Source: Thermogutta terrifontis (GTDB lineage: Bacteria > Planctomycetota > Planctomycetia > Pirellulales > Thermoguttaceae). From it: a DNA stretch of 64,000 bases. Below, piece by piece: positions 29,172-34,666 of the stretch. Numbering within the stretch: position 1 is the first letter of the stretch; each line of letters opens with the position of its first letter. The notes under the pieces were generated by a model. It did not search any database. It saw only the letters and a program-made list of their open reading frames with translations, and was not told where the DNA came from. Location: positions 496,001 to 560,000 of the forward strand of contig NZ_CP018477.1 in the NCBI RefSeq assembly GCF_002277955.1, given 5' to 3'. Position numbers and translations under genes: made by a program.

Positions 29172-30616
29172 GGCTCATCCTTGTGACTCTCGAAAAGATC
29201 AGTGAGGAATTTGAAACGATTGGGGGGCTTGTCGGGAAGGCCATCGATCTGCCGGATTCGCTCGGCTGCCAGGACGGCCGCCTTGGTGTGAGGAAACTCC
29301 CGTAATGTGGCACGGTAATAATATCGAGCAGCTCCGTAGTAATGGCGATTGTCGTAATACTGCCCGATGGCGAAATACCGCATGGCCTTTTCTTCGGTGA
29401 TTTCGTTTTTGGCACGGACCACTTCTTCCCTGTCGGAACCCAGGCGATCCCGGTACACGGTGAGCAATTCGTCCGCGGCGCGTTCCGCTTTTTCCAGGGG
29501 GGTGCCATCGTAAAGTGGTCCCTGATAGGACAATTCATGAGCTTTGATGGCCAAAAGTGCGGCGTTCACCGCGTGTTCACTCTGTGAATAGTCTTTTCGC
29601 AGGAGGTCATAATGATAAGCGGCGTCCTGGTATCGCCCTTTGAGAAAATAAGCGTTGGCAGTGGCCATCACCGCATCATCGGCAAGGGGCCCTGTGGGGT
29701 CGTAGAGACGCACGTTCTGGTAGGCCTTGATTGCCCGACCCCAGGTGTCAAAGGTGGGTCGGCTCTTATCGCCCCACTGAACCAGCCCGAGCATCGAGGG
29801 TTTTGAAAGTTCCACCTGTTCCCAGTACCGTCCGATGGCAAACTCGCGCTTGGCGACAGTGTCCAGATATCGGGTAAACTCGTACTTTTTGAGCAGCTCG
29901 AGATAGGCATTTTCTGCCTGGGGATAGCGATCGGCAAAAAAGTACGATTCGCCCGCCATGAACAGGGCATCTTCTTCGAGGGGTGAATTGGGCCAGTGCT
30001 TGGCGGCTTTTTTGAATTTGGCGGCCGCCTCTTCGTATCGACCCCGGCGGTACAGTTCGGCACCCTCCTGATAGAGCGAGCGGGCGAGAGATTCGTCGCG
30101 TTTCGGCTGGAATAGTTTGCCCAACCGCTTGGGGATTTCAAAAAGGATGAAGTCTTCTTCCTCTTCTTCCTCATCCGAGCGGGGCACAATAACCGTGTCG
30201 GCATCGGCAGGCGGAAGCGGTTCACCACTGTCTTGGTTGGCCGACGTGCGCTGGACAGCCGTCCCGTTGTCCGCGGTCTGCTGGAGATTCCCCAATTCGT
30301 TTTGCCCGGCAGACCGAGCCGGCTTCGCCGCGGACGAGTCCGCGCTGGACGGCTGGGATGTGGCGGACGGTTCCTCCCGTCCGGTGATCCTGCGGAAAAG
30401 CCACCCCTCTTCAGCCGGTTGCTGGGGATCGTAACCCGACCGCTTGGCCCGATCCGGAAGTTCCAGCATACTTCGGCATCCGGCCACTGAAAGAATCGTC
30501 CCTATCACCAAGGCCACCAAGAGGTGCGGGGGGAGCCACCGGCCGGTGCTCCGCACAGCCCGCGCAATTCCGTTTGTGATTGTGGCCCTATCGGCCGGAC
30601 AATCCCAGGTATTCAT
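29168..30616 (-). CDS. BamD-like tetratricopeptide lipoprotein
   Basis: The 482-residue protein has a lipobox Cys47 (ILSVAGC), a low-complexity region with an EEEEEED acidic patch (about 150-157), and then several TPR-like units (RSLYQEGAELYRRGRYEEAAAKFKKAAKHWPNSP; DDAVMATANAYFLKGRYQDAAYHY; KAMRYFAIGQYYDNRHYYGAARYYYRATLREFPHTKAA). This matches outer-membrane assembly factor BamD, though the body is larger. It overlaps recO by 29 bases upstream and lptE by four downstream. It probably works in outer-membrane protein insertion. Confidence 0.8.
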   Translation of the reverse strand: MNTWDCPADRATITNGIARAVRSTGRWLPPHLLVALVIGTILSVAGCRSMLELPDRAKRSGYDPQQPAEEGWLFRRITGREEPSATSQPSSADSSAAKPARSAGQNELGNLQQTADNGTAVQRTSANQDSGEPLPPADADTVIVPRSDEEEEEEDFILFEIPKRLGKLFQPKRDESLARSLYQEGAELYRRGRYEEAAAKFKKAAKHWPNSPLEEDALFMAGESYFFADRYPQAENAYLELLKKYEFTRYLDTVAKREFAIGRYWEQVELSKPSMLGLVQWGDKSRPTFDTWGRAIKAYQNVRLYDPTGPLADDAVMATANAYFLKGRYQDAAYHYDLLRKDYSQSEHAVNAALLAIKAHELSYQGPLYDGTPLEKAERAADELLTVYRDRLGSDREEVVRAKNEITEEKAMRYFAIGQYYDNRHYYGAARYYYRATLREFPHTKAAVLAAERIRQIDGLPDKPPNRFKFLTDLFESHKDEP

Positions 30617-31397
30617 GCATCCGTGGCCTTTGGCCCAAAAGGTGACACACGTACTGTCCCAACAGGCCGCGCAGTTGACCGCTTACACTCGGCGCGATGT
30701 GCAACGAGCCAACGTCCCGCGGTGTTTTTCCCCGAAGCTCCTCCATCGCATCGATAACACTGGCAGGCACGAGCACGACTCCGCGTTTTCCCGGGCGACA
30801 CCGGCCACACAGCACGCCACCATCAAGCAGCGAAAAATAGTATTCCTGCCGGGCATTCGCCCCCGATGTTGGATGACCTTCTTCCCGGGACTGAGCAGAA
30901 GCCCTGCCGCGAACGCTCTCCCCACAACTCACGCACATGTCGAGTGCCGGACTGTGGCCGGTTAGATCCAGAATCCGCAACTCATAAAACGGCACTAGAA
31001 GCTGGATATCACCTCCTTTCTGAAGGACCGTCAGGGTCTCTTCGGAAACGTCAAACAGTTCCGGATGGGCGTCCTCCTCGTCCGTCATGGCGTTGAGAAG
31101 CTCCGCGACATAGAGGGCCGCATAATACCGCGGCAAGCCGCTTTGTTCCACCCGAAATCGCCGCTGGAGCTTCGCCTCCGTGATAATGTGGAGGGCCTCT
31201 GAGGACTTGCGAAGAAAGACTACGCGACAAAGCGAAAGGAGGTCAAGAGCAAAGTCAAAGGGGTTTTTCGGCCGTTTCGCACCTTTCGCTATCCCCCGGA
31301 TTTTGCCAAATTCGCGGGTAAACAGCGTGACGACGAGGCTGCTCTCGCTGAAATCGTAGGTGCGAAGAACCAGGGCCGTCGCTTGTTCGGCAGACAT
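30588..31397 (-). CDS. recO: DNA repair protein RecO
   Basis: The 269-residue protein has the RecO N-terminal OB-like fold (ATALVLRTYDFSESSLVVTLFTREFGKIRGIAKGAKRPKNPF) and a zinc site made by Cys155/Cys158 and Cys197/Cys200 (CVSC and CGRC). It loads RecA onto SSB-coated DNA with RecR/RecF. It sits 80 bases downstream of the alkyltransferase-endonuclease V fusion and overlaps the BamD-like gene. The length is normal for the family. Confidence 0.92.
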   Translation of the reverse strand: MSAEQATALVLRTYDFSESSLVVTLFTREFGKIRGIAKGAKRPKNPFDFALDLLSLCRVVFLRKSSEALHIITEAKLQRRFRVEQSGLPRYYAALYVAELLNAMTDEEDAHPELFDVSEETLTVLQKGGDIQLLVPFYELRILDLTGHSPALDMCVSCGESVRGRASAQSREEGHPTSGANARQEYYFSLLDGGVLCGRCRPGKRGVVLVPASVIDAMEELRGKTPRDVGSLHIAPSVSGQLRGLLGQYVCHLLGQRPRMHEYLGLSGR

Positions 31398-31477: not shown

Positions 31478-32491
31478 TCATTTCAATTGTCGGGCAAGGG
31501 CCCGCGACAGGCGATCAGCCCAGTAGATCGGGTCTGGTAAACGGTGCTGGGCGAACAGCGGCCGGATCACCCGTACGCACCCCTCCACATCAATGCGGTG
31601 TCCCACCGAAAGAAAGACTGGCTGGGCATGTCCCCGCTGACTCCGCAGCACAACCCCCAGGTGGCGTCCTTCCCATTCCACCGCCAGAGTCCCACCCGGC
31701 AGCAATTCCTTCTGTTCCATCTGGCCGCATAACAGGGTTTTGGTGATTCCGATCGTGGGCCGATCGATCACGACCCCCAGATGACTGGCGATCCCCATTC
31801 CCCGCGGATGTAACAGGCCACTCCCATCCACCGCGATGACGTCCGCCAGTTGGTCCTCCCTGGCGGCTTTCCTGATGACCGAAAGCATCGGCGACAACTC
31901 GCGGAAGGCCAGGTAACTGGTGATGTAAGGAAATCGGGCTCTTTCCACCACCGATGTCTCGTAGAGTTTCTCCCCCCCGGGCCAACTGACACGACAGTAC
32001 ACTGCCACCGCCCACTGCCCCCGATAGGAAACATCCACTCCAGCGCAATCTTTTGGATCAGCGGGAAGCGGCGTGATGATCACTTTTTTTCGCAGGTCCT
32101 CCTGGATGGCTCGCAACTTTCGCAGCGGCCGGTCTTCATCTTCAATTCCAAGGAGGCTTGCCAATTCCTGGGGGCCGATGATGGCCTCTTCCGAAACCCC
32201 TCCCGGCAACACAGCAACACCTTCCCGCCGCAGCAAATCTCGCTGTACGTCCGCTCCGATGCCAGAACGCCCCAGCCGTCCTCCGACTCGGACCACGCGA
32301 TGGCAAGCACATTCTTCCAAATGGGTGTGCTCGACCAGCCACGTACCCACCCAGCGTGCCGCTTGCCTATCGCCGAGCAACTCCGCAAGCGCTCCGCAGG
32401 TCGTCACCCGGCCTGGTGGGATCGCCGCAATGCACTGGCGCAAAATGGCCTCCAGATCAGGAACCACGTCATCCACTTCCGATTCGCTCAT
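31478..32491 (-). CDS. Alkyltransferase domain fused to endonuclease V
   Basis: The 337-residue protein starts at ATG 32491, in a four-base ATGA overlap with the peptidase gene and about 9 bases from a GGGGGAG site. Residues 12-95 form an MGMT/ATL DNA-binding domain (RVTTCGALAELLGDRQAARWVG; ACHRVVRVGGRLG). Cys63 of the ACHR motif is kept, unlike typical ATL proteins that replace it. Residues 125-337 are endonuclease V with Asp153 (AGVDVSY), Glu198 (YLAFRE), Asp222 (VDGSGLLHPRG) and His298 (SVGHRID). It would cut DNA beside deaminated adenine (inosine) and possibly also sense or repair O6-alkylguanine. Confidence 0.9.
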   Translation of the reverse strand: MSESEVDDVVPDLEAILRQCIAAIPPGRVTTCGALAELLGDRQAARWVGTWLVEHTHLEECACHRVVRVGGRLGRSGIGADVQRDLLRREGVAVLPGGVSEEAIIGPQELASLLGIEDEDRPLRKLRAIQEDLRKKVIITPLPADPKDCAGVDVSYRGQWAVAVYCRVSWPGGEKLYETSVVERARFPYITSYLAFRELSPMLSVIRKAAREDQLADVIAVDGSGLLHPRGMGIASHLGVVIDRPTIGITKTLLCGQMEQKELLPGGTLAVEWEGRHLGVVLRSQRGHAQPVFLSVGHRIDVEGCVRVIRPLFAQHRLPDPIYWADRLSRALARQLK

Positions 32492-33696
32492 GGTGACCAT
32501 CTCCCCCAAACCAGGCGAAGGGGCCGGACCAATCCCACAACGTCTTCCCGCCGCCAGCGACGACCGCCCTGCCGGCTGTCCAGGGAAATGTGAGGGTCGT
32601 CCCCCAGCAACACAAAGCCGTCACCCGCGTCGGCAATCAGCCCATCGGGATAGGGCACCACCCACCAGACACCCATTTCCCGCAACCGAATTTCTCCCTG
32701 GGTCACAGTGAGCCGCAACACAACCGGGGCGTCTTTCGGCGAACCATCGTCGTCCCAATCGTGGGTGAACAGGCCCATGTCGTCCATCAGAAGCATCCAG
32801 CGCCGATCCACGGAAGAGAGCACAATCCGCCGCGGAATGGTCCCCGGAAGTTCCCGCCGCCCCTGGAAAAGAGGCCGCTTTTCTGGCCCCAGGATCCGCC
32901 AGGCCACACTCGGGTGCTCCCCCGCGGACCAGGTTACCTCGATCCCATAGTCGCCAAATCGTGCCGACATTACAAACGCGGTCCCCGGAGCAGCTTGCGC
33001 CAAAAAAACCGACCAGAGCACGTTCGTGCAGAGCCGCTCTGCCTGATCTGCCGCGGGGTGATATGGGCAGAAGGTTGTCAGCCGCCGGGAATAAACCCAT
33101 TCCGCGGATTTTTTATCAACCCCGTCTGCGGACAGCACGAGTCCTTGCCCATCCTCATTGCCGCATCGTGTCAGCAATCGCGCCATCTCCCATTGCACGG
33201 GCAGGGGCCGGCGCATCGGCACATCATTGCAATACAAAAGTCCGGCTTTGACAAAGACTTTTTCCCCCGGCAAACCCACCACGCGCTTCACCACCAGACC
33301 CGGCATGTTTTGCTCCCGAATCGCCGCCAGATCCCATCGCTGGACAGGCCGAACGAGCCCGCGAAACACGAGAATCCGATCCCCCGAGTGCTGGCTGACC
33401 GGGGGGGCTTTGGCCGACTCGCCGGGCTGCACCTCGGCCCAACGCTTTCCACACACGGGACACACAGCCCGTATCAGCGTCGTCCGTTTTTCCCCCCATG
33501 CTGCATCCCACAGCAGTTCGCGCCCACACCGCGGACAGTGGCTTTTCCAATGGAGGCCTCGCAGAGTCGGAAACATCGATCCGCTGGTCACGACGATCGG
33601 CGTCATCAGCCCCTGAAGCGCCAGTTGGTCCAGCGCGAGCACACCGATCGCGATCAGGACCAAACTCCGGCCTAATCGTTTGACAGGCGAGGCCAT
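32488..33696 (-). CDS. lepB: Signal peptidase I with inserted zinc ribbon
   Basis: The preferred start 33696 puts one membrane segment at about 9-31; the frame extends to 33987. Box B is TSGSMFPTL with nucleophile Ser40, box D is KRVVGLPGE with general-base Lys137, and box E is GDDPHISLDSR. Between boxes B and D lies a zinc-ribbon-like segment with Cys54/Cys57 (CPRC) and Cys79/Cys82 (CPVC). A large insertion of about 200 residues separates boxes D and E. It cleaves signal peptides in the membrane. The gene overlaps the alkyltransferase fusion by four bases. Confidence 0.88.
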   Translation of the reverse strand: MASPVKRLGRSLVLIAIGVLALDQLALQGLMTPIVVTSGSMFPTLRGLHWKSHCPRCGRELLWDAAWGEKRTTLIRAVCPVCGKRWAEVQPGESAKAPPVSQHSGDRILVFRGLVRPVQRWDLAAIREQNMPGLVVKRVVGLPGEKVFVKAGLLYCNDVPMRRPLPVQWEMARLLTRCGNEDGQGLVLSADGVDKKSAEWVYSRRLTTFCPYHPAADQAERLCTNVLWSVFLAQAAPGTAFVMSARFGDYGIEVTWSAGEHPSVAWRILGPEKRPLFQGRRELPGTIPRRIVLSSVDRRWMLLMDDMGLFTHDWDDDGSPKDAPVVLRLTVTQGEIRLREMGVWWVVPYPDGLIADAGDGFVLLGDDPHISLDSRQGGRRWRREDVVGLVRPLRLVWGRWSP

Positions 33697-33883
33697 TCTG
33701 GACCGGCGAAAAATGAGAGTGTCCTCTCTGGGCCGCACAATCTCCCATCCGTTTCGCTGAGGCGCCCGCTCCACTCCAATTCGTACCGAAAGAAACCCCC
33801 AACCCGCTCTGATAGTGGTGTTGCAGACACGATGGCCCCAACGCGAGGACCGTTGAAGCCATTGCAGGCCCGCAATCCCCTCC

Positions 33884-34666
33884 TTACAGGCGGTAGATGA
33901 ATTCCTTGGCTTGCCGCAATTCGGCCAGCGGATCCCCTTCTCCGGTGGGGCGAAGGATAAGATGCCCCTGATAGCCGACTTTCTCAAGGGCAGTTAACAC
34001 ACCGGGATAGTCAACATTGCCCTGGCCGAGTGGCACCAAGCGGTAGCCTCTTCCCCCCGGACGGCTGGTCACATCGCCCGCGTGAAATGCAAGAATCCAC
34101 CTTCCGAGCGTCTCGATCGCTTCTGCGGGGTCGTAACCGTGCATGGCGAACTCGGCCGGATTCACCTCCACTCCGATCCCCCCTTCGGGGAGGCCATTCA
34201 GTAGTCGCACCACATCCGCGGCCGGTTCCCATCCCGTTTCAACAGCCAGTACCGCTCCCGCCCGCTCCCCCCACCGGCTCAGGTCGGCAAGGACTTCCTT
34301 CAACACCTGCCATTCGAGATTTTCGGAGTTTTGCGCGATAAAGCCGATTCTATAGCTCAGGTATCGCCCCCCTAATTGGTAGGTCAGATCCATGGCCCGC
34401 CGGATGTCCTCGATCCGCTTTTCCAGTCCTTCAGGGTCATCCAGGCCCCTCGAAAGTCGTAGCCGCGCAAGTGCTAGGGTGAGGTTCCAATCCGCCAGAT
34501 GTTTCCGTATTTCCCGGATGGCCGTCCGCGTGTAGTCTTCCAGCGGCATCAGCCCGATGAGGTCCAGTTCCACCCCTTCCAGGGCAAGGTCCCGAATGCG
34601 GGGTAACGTCTCGCGGAGATCACCCGGGATGGGACCGACATCAGCAGCCAGGCGGATTTTTAACAC
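33884..34666 (-). CDS. Sugar phosphate isomerase/epimerase (xylose isomerase-like TIM barrel)
   Basis: The frame opens at a TTG (34684), but the GTG at 34666 has a better placed AGAGGGA site, giving 260 residues. The AP-endonuclease-2/xylose isomerase-like barrel is shown by LALEGVELDLIG, LAVETGWEPAAD, GVEVNPAEFAMHG and AFHAGDV, whose Glu, Asp and His residues would hold the divalent metal, and a final HLILRPTGEGDPL. The substrate cannot be named. It is the first gene of a minus-strand run, 187 bases ahead of the peptidase gene. Confidence 0.82.
   Translation of the reverse strand: MLKIRLAADVGPIPGDLRETLPRIRDLALEGVELDLIGLMPLEDYTRTAIREIRKHLADWNLTLALARLRLSRGLDDPEGLEKRIEDIRRAMDLTYQLGGRYLSYRIGFIAQNSENLEWQVLKEVLADLSRWGERAGAVLAVETGWEPAADVVRLLNGLPEGGIGVEVNPAEFAMHGYDPAEAIETLGRWILAFHAGDVTSRPGGRGYRLVPLGQGNVDYPGVLTALEKVGYQGHLILRPTGEGDPLAELRQAKEFIYRL

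Follow-up and report, generated by a model that had tools for sequence, protein, structure and literature searches.

The sequence data on balance favour a model where a single protein of Thermogutta terrifontis joins an ATL-like recognition domain to an active-type endonuclease V (EndoV) and carries, at the position of the AGT active site, a single-metal H-x-H-x3-C-x-C site that includes the former acceptor cysteine. The gene lies in the window, a stretch of 64,000 nucleotides of contig NZ_CP018477.1 of this hot-spring bacterium (Planctomycetota, Planctomycetia, Pirellulales, Thermoguttaceae; Table 1).

Table 1. Features of the fusion gene and its neighbours, in window coordinates.
Feature	Coordinates	Strand	Basis
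AGT/ATL-like + endonuclease V fusion gene, 337 aa, ATG start	31478..32491	(-)	ORF reading, from 32491 down to 31478
AGT/ATL-fold DNA-binding domain (Pfam DNA_binding_1), residues 19-92	32216..32437	(-)	Pfam and structural match
Cys32, aligned with the conserved AGT tyrosine	32396..32398	(-)	HMM alignment
Arg46, equivalent of the AGT arginine finger	32354..32356	(-)	HMM alignment
H55-T-H57-L-E-E-C61-A-C63, proposed His2Cys2 metal-binding loop at the AGT active-site position	32303..32329	(-)	Sequence, co-occurrence, tree flips, fusion restriction
Cys63 codon, equivalent of the AGT acceptor cysteine (PCHR)	32303..32305	(-)	HMM alignment to human MGMT and Ada
Glu90, equivalent of the AGT catalytic-triad glutamate	32222..32224	(-)	HMM alignment; mostly present also where the four residues are absent
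Linker, residues 93-131	32099..32215	(-)	Pfam limits and AF2 model
Endonuclease V domain (Pfam Endonuclease_5), residues 132-327	31511..32098	(-)	Pfam, alignment and structural match
S26 signal-peptidase-like gene, upstream (context only)	32488..33987	(-)	4-bp overlap with the fusion gene
recO, next downstream gene (context only)	30588..31397	(-)	

The fusion gene is a single frame without an internal stop. An AGT-type domain and an EndoV in one chain had been proposed in an earlier note on this DNA, and the reading holds: both Pfam domains fall in the one frame of 337 codons. A two-domain ORF in one frame recurs in 90 different sequences, which rules out a frameshift or an assembly artefact that would leave two separate genes. 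The ATG shares 4 bp (ATGA) with the stop codon of the S26 peptidase gene, and recO starts 80 bp downstream of the fusion gene. This overlap and proximity, from which a repair operon had been deduced, are real, but the operon does not appear to be conserved: no match to recO or the peptidase was found near the fusion in 144 loci (fusion match at E < 1e-20) except in two from the window's own genome, in a survey where some loci hold EndoV alone, flanks often extend to no more than 1.5 kb or so and diverged neighbours could escape. The T. terrifontis genome is a single contig of 4,810,751 bases, and the fusion is the sole match to its own protein at E ≤ 0.001, a search that also missed a distant Ogt and that a very diverged second EndoV could likewise escape. 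The protein is only about 48% identical to the two fusions of the same genus (L002 and L003) and forms its own long branch in a quick tree; this copy may be fast-evolving or acquired. An AF2 model of the 337-residue protein had a mean pLDDT of 95.2 and a pTM of 0.90; the alignment input comprised 42 fusions, namely the window protein plus 41 taken from the 45 that the pattern scan described below found within a single locus, with four cut by a locus end omitted. A single-sequence run gave a pLDDT of 35.0.

The C-terminal domain matches Endonuclease_5 with E 1.3e-51 and 175.5 bits (cut-off 23.4), and in VIA-align the model superimposes on T. maritima EndoV (2w35) with Z 32.0 and rmsd 1.8 over 219 aligned residues; by both measures it is an endonuclease V. 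D153, Y189, E198, D222, H228, K251 and D326 align to the residues that we take to be T. maritima D43, Y80, E89, D110, H116, K139 and H214. With the roles that we assume for these positions, the catalytic and metal residues and the DNA wedge tyrosine (D153, Y189, E198, D222, K251, D326) are all present, as the earlier note had claimed; E. coli EndoV (4xpu) likewise has an aspartate at the position of D326. Among the 90 different fusions the seven positions are D in 90, Y in 89 (F in one), E in 90, D in 89, H in 89, K in 88 and D in 86 (H in one), the remainder being gaps. The full residue set suggests an EndoV of the active type, predicted to incise DNA. The histidine of the GH motif (His298, facing T. 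maritima H185) varies more, with H in 53 of the 90 fusions, N, F, G, Y, Q, S or D in 33 and gaps in the rest.

The N-terminal domain has the AGT DNA-binding fold (DNA_binding_1, PF01035; E 3.7e-17, 62.4 bits against a cut-off of 27). Residues 10-109 of the model align with S. pombe Atl1 bound to DNA (3gx4; Z 12.8, rmsd 2.0, 97 aligned) and with the V. parahaemolyticus ATL (Z 12.3). The matches to this domain among those listed by VIA-align are ATLs, and no canonical AGT occurs among the 50 matches listed, which are filled by EndoV and Argonaute entries. A profile search against PDB sequences ranked Atl1 (50.3 bits) first, followed by the V. parahaemolyticus ATL (44.3), Ada (41.7) and then human MGMT. 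As in ATLs, a domain of the AGT C-terminal type, with helix–turn–helix and arginine finger, stands without the AGT N-terminal domain. This absence is common to ATLs and the domain studied here and does not by itself decide between AGT and ATL. In ATLs the acceptor cysteine is replaced, usually by tryptophan, but C63 is present here.

In the HMM alignment C63 falls on the cysteine of the PCHR motif in human MGMT and E. coli Ada, so that the earlier description of an ACHR motif with its cysteine retained is correct. C61, H57 and H55 follow without gaps two, six and eight residues before it, and H55, H57, C61 and C63 face N137 (the hinge), V139, I143 and C145 of human MGMT, respectively, in the numbering that we take for these loop positions. 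The loop thus reads H-x-H-x3-C-x-C-H-R, as against N-P-V-P-I-L-I-P-C-H-R in MGMT. C32 faces the conserved AGT tyrosine, presumably human Y114. Cys is found at this position in 11 of the 36 fusions that have all four loop residues, the window protein included, and in none of the 36 others with which they are compared below (Y 26, F 10). Measured against the AGT motif I/V-PCHR-V/I-V/I, as worded in the review PMC10779285, the protein has C-A-C-H-R-V-V, with the cysteine and without the preceding I/V and P. The asparagine termed the hinge in the same review is replaced by His55, and the conserved tyrosine by Cys32. On the ogt model TIGR00589 (NCBIfam) the window protein scores 27.8 bits, below the cut-off of 46.4; among the seven relatives scanned, L009 (46.9) and L034 (46.4) reach this value and L004 (39.9) does not. 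At the DNA level the motif is found at a single place in the window and does not turn up in any of 100 shuffles.

Fusions were collected by homology from 40 genomes of relatives (T. terrifontis included), 392 genomes of the phylum and 397 of the class, in overlapping sets with up to five candidates scored per genome in the latter two; in the class sample 61 of the 397 genomes had a match at E ≤ 1e-55. After removal of duplicates, the one-ORF fusions from 218 loci gave 90 different sequences, 72 by homology and 18 by the motif pattern only; two loci were left out of the 72, L214 (domains in different frames) and L218 (at the end of a contig). Cys-type sequences made up 16 of the 18 rows of the query alignment, so that fusions without the cysteine may be under-sampled in these counts. 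Residue 63 is C in 39 of the 72, S in nine, A in eight, W in eight, T in four, V in three and R in one. All four residues are present in 36 fusions, none in 31 and some in five. H55, H57 and C61 never occur as a set without C63 (36/0/3/33; Fisher p 4e-17, with relatedness not corrected). Among 101 alignment columns the best predictors of C63 are H55 (70 of 72), C61 and H57 (69 each); the next column reaches 57. If C63 acted on its own, as the cysteine of an AGT does, its retention would be expected to mean a capacity for repair. Instead it forms a set with three other ligand-type residues that are present or absent jointly, as the ligands of a bound metal ion would be, and this coupling points to a metal site. 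Exceptions tell against such a site. Of the 39 fusions with a cysteine at residue 63, three (L196, L200 and L216) are without the full set, and L216 has LPCHR, as in an ordinary AGT. Among fusions with the full set, L205 has CHC in place of CHR, and L210 carries a 23-residue insert between HxH and CxC that brings an extra cysteine. An insertion inside the proposed metal loop is also seen in L196. The triad positions are kept in the 36 four-residue fusions (36 H at position 64; 33 E and three D at position 90), which a transferase would require, and mostly so in the 36 without the full set (29 H, 28 E).

These data bear on the proposal of the earlier note that one protein acts on both O6-alkylguanine and deaminated bases, read here as a bona fide bifunctional enzyme, in which a metal-free C63 would take the alkyl group from O6-alkylguanine, H55, H57 and C61 would tune the pocket, and EndoV would independently cut deaminated bases. 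It accounts for C63, H64 and E90 at the AGT triad positions and R46 at that of the arginine finger, and it agrees with the ogt scores of L009 and L034 and with a Ferroplasma fusion for which both activities are published, according to the review PMC10779285. However, C63 is nearly always accompanied by the three other ligand-type residues and is missing from 33 of the 72 fusions, a histidine and a cysteine replace the hinge asparagine and the conserved tyrosine, the ogt score of the window protein falls short and the genome encodes a separate canonical Ogt; we consider the reading rather unlikely. The retained cysteine, from which a capacity to repair or flag O6-alkylguanine had been deduced, does not support a plain alkyltransferase given its coupling to H55, H57 and C61, the histidine hinge and the low ogt score.

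Fusions with S, A, W, T, V or R at residue 63 keep both domains, most fold residues and the EndoV site; PWHR is found in L049, L203, L213 and L215. Where the four residues are absent, the arginine finger and the residues of the helix–turn–helix region are still conserved for the most part. In 24 close pairs, drawn from fusions with and without the four residues, dN/dS of the N-terminal domain ranged from 0.06 to 0.58 (several dS values are near saturation) and exceeded that of EndoV in 18 pairs. Two loci show erosion or splitting. In L051 (G144:C1:2705317-2705997) EndoV is intact and the AGT-like motif region is deleted, an erosion of the recognition domain. In L214 (G977:C45:570400-572300) an AGT-like part with the four-residue motif (HEHTNLCHCHR) and EndoV are read in different frames that stop codons separate; the other members inspected of its family (code f16) have lost the cysteine.

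Zinc activates Cys38 in the N-terminal domain of Ada, and a related chemistry can be imagined here, with a His2Cys2 zinc making C63 a nucleophilic thiolate whose alkylation loosens the site and licenses cutting by EndoV. We regard such a metal-activated acceptor as unlikely: the acceptor-position cysteine is indeed among the four coupled residues and the triad His and Glu are present, but fusions without the whole site keep the domain, so that transfer would seem dispensable, and a site of two histidines and two cysteines is less electron-rich than the four-Cys site of Ada. A zinc-thiolate switch at O6-alkylguanine, in which either alkyl transfer or mere lesion binding frees a metal ligand and thereby signals EndoV to nick, is to our mind similarly improbable. 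If true, it would place Ada-type zinc chemistry inside the O6-alkylguanine pocket, in a gene family that would show its repeated exchange with ATL-like forms (PWHR, AHR, SHR). It is very doubtful that the N-terminal domain is a mere DNA-binding tether without lesion recognition and HxHx3CxC a redox or structural element (for example a C61–C63 disulfide), since the arginine finger and helix–turn–helix residues mostly persist where the four residues are absent and a disulfide leaves two coupled histidines unexplained, even if L051 keeps EndoV without the motif region and the N-terminal domain has the higher dN/dS in most close pairs.

The putative metal site also changes as a unit in the tree of the nuclease. 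A tree of the EndoV part only was built from 86 fusions (the 90 less four with short EndoV parts) and seven EndoV-only rows, and separated the fusions from the latter with 100/100 support. Parsimony required 8, 8, 8 and 7 changes at residues 55, 57, 61 and 63. With equal costs, six branches flip all four residues together, four as losses and two as gains; the remaining flips are at L212 (55), L036 (55, 57 and 61), L196 (57), L198 (61) and the L036–L200 branch (63). A loss-only reconstruction requires 11, 10, 9 and 8 losses, and six of the clades that lost the residues coincide across the four sites. With the changes placed at random, no more than one branch was shared in 20,000 draws, compared with the four all-loss branches observed. 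An independent-pairs test on starred branches found one pair only and had no power. The root state is 'present' by a single step (8 against 9), which leaves the direction of change and the order of gain and loss weakly determined, and several inner branches are weakly supported.

A DNA form of the pattern HxHx3CxCHRxxR was scanned over the contigs of 84,980 species genomes; it demands an arginine five residues after the cysteine, and AGTs with the four residues and another residue there would escape it. The scan gave 82 loci, 46 with a genuine AGT-like domain and 36 that are short or unrelated frames. All 46 genuine loci are fused to EndoV, 45 within the locus and L061, cut by the locus edge, in its genome. 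Planctomycete titles stand on 45 of them. L096, titled Nealsonbacteria, was not counted as a case from another phylum, as it has the same DNA as L006, whose genome is placed in the window's own family. A viral scan with the pattern gave eight hits, none with an AGT domain. The collected loci also contain 28 stand-alone AGT-like ORFs (25 different), all with PCHR preceded by I or V and 27 with an asparagine eight residues before the cysteine. HxHx3CxC occurs in none of these 28, a control set of ORFs of 120 residues or more from which short stand-alone ATLs are thus absent. A 29th ORF with the N-terminal domain only does carry the motif, but this is the broken fusion L214. At least one PF01035 match is present in 37 of the 40 genomes of relatives, T. 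terrifontis included, and 17 of 19 fusion carriers have a further one. In T. terrifontis the second copy is the separate canonical Ogt (234 aa, 96.9 bits on TIGR00589).

A survey of how widespread the fusion is, which the earlier note had suggested, shows that it recurs across class Planctomycetia. The 20 full-length rows in the 392-genome phylum sample all come from the window's family, order or class. Among matches over the cut-offs used (1e-45 to 1e-48, up to 9-11 candidates scored per genome, so that weaker fusions could escape), no full-length fusion was found outside Planctomycetia in samples of other groups. These were the phyla of a Methanothrix (0 of 196 genomes; 36 with a match, one row starting at profile position 59 with a stop inside), a Kiritimatiellae (0 of 240; eight with a match), an Acidobacteria record (0 of 199; 12 with a match) and a Chloroflexi record (0 of 201; 16 with a match).

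For the metal-site model that we favour, we propose that in T. terrifontis and in half of the homology-found fusions the H-x-H-x3-C-x-C loop binds one metal ion, most likely Zn2+, with C63 as one ligand. The N-terminal domain would flip or hold a base that is O6-modified or deaminated, and EndoV in the same chain would nick the strand 3' of that lesion and so lead it into excision repair. C63 would be mainly structural or a sensor. Zinc may brace the ATL-like domain in the four-residue forms, and several lineages without the whole site keep the two-domain protein.

AGT and ATL share a fold, and to our knowledge it is unsettled how one became the other. Here one family presents Cys-, Trp- and Ala/Ser/Thr-bearing forms attached to one and the same nuclease, and its candidate metal site comes or goes as a whole. 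Its members lend themselves to comparative tests of the role of the acceptor position in a recognition domain that passes damaged DNA on to a nuclease. Should the metal site prove real, a retained cysteine would not be safe grounds for annotating such proteins as transferases.

The joining of two damage pathways in one chain, which the earlier note had pointed out, is not new and is already published. The AGTendoV of Ferroplasma acidarmanus (Kanugula et al., 2005) had both activities measured, according to the review PMC10779285, which also mentions ATL-EndoV fusions in archaea (Tubbs et al., 2009) and the speculation that EndoV acts like XPG in excision repair started by an ATL. In our search of the open-access literature, outside which most subscription papers lie, neither a planctomycete AGT-EndoV fusion nor the HxHx3CxC motif was found described. 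The fusion architecture is known; the metal-site variant appears to be new within the literature searched. Like the T. terrifontis protein, Ferroplasma AGTendoV, as described in PMC10779285, fuses a C-terminal-type AGT domain without the AGT N-terminal domain to EndoV and has a cysteine at the acceptor position; it differs in being archaeal and in its measured activities, whereas the T. terrifontis fusion is known from sequence. Archaeal ATL-EndoV proteins (same review) share the ATL-like domain and EndoV, and the planctomycete PWHR forms L049 and L203 resemble them, while the window protein has a cysteine instead of the tryptophan and the extra His, His and Cys.

The bacterial EndoVs 2w35 and 4xpu are alike in fold and catalytic residue set but unfused, and both have a proline after PYI, where 64 of the 90 fusions have T or S and 23 have P. 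Canonical AGT/Ogt proteins (MGMT, 1eh6; Ada-C, 1sfe; the Ogt of T. terrifontis itself, G000:C1:4261080-4261325) share the fold, the arginine finger and the Cys-His-Glu positions. They have a loop of the N-P-V-P-I-L-I-P-C type in place of H-x-H-x3-C-x-C, possess the N-terminal domain and lack EndoV. Stand-alone ATLs (S. pombe Atl1, 3gva and 3gx4; V. parahaemolyticus, 2kif) are the best PDB matches of the N-terminal domain and likewise lack the AGT N-terminal domain, but they carry tryptophan at the acceptor position and have neither EndoV nor HxHx3CxC.
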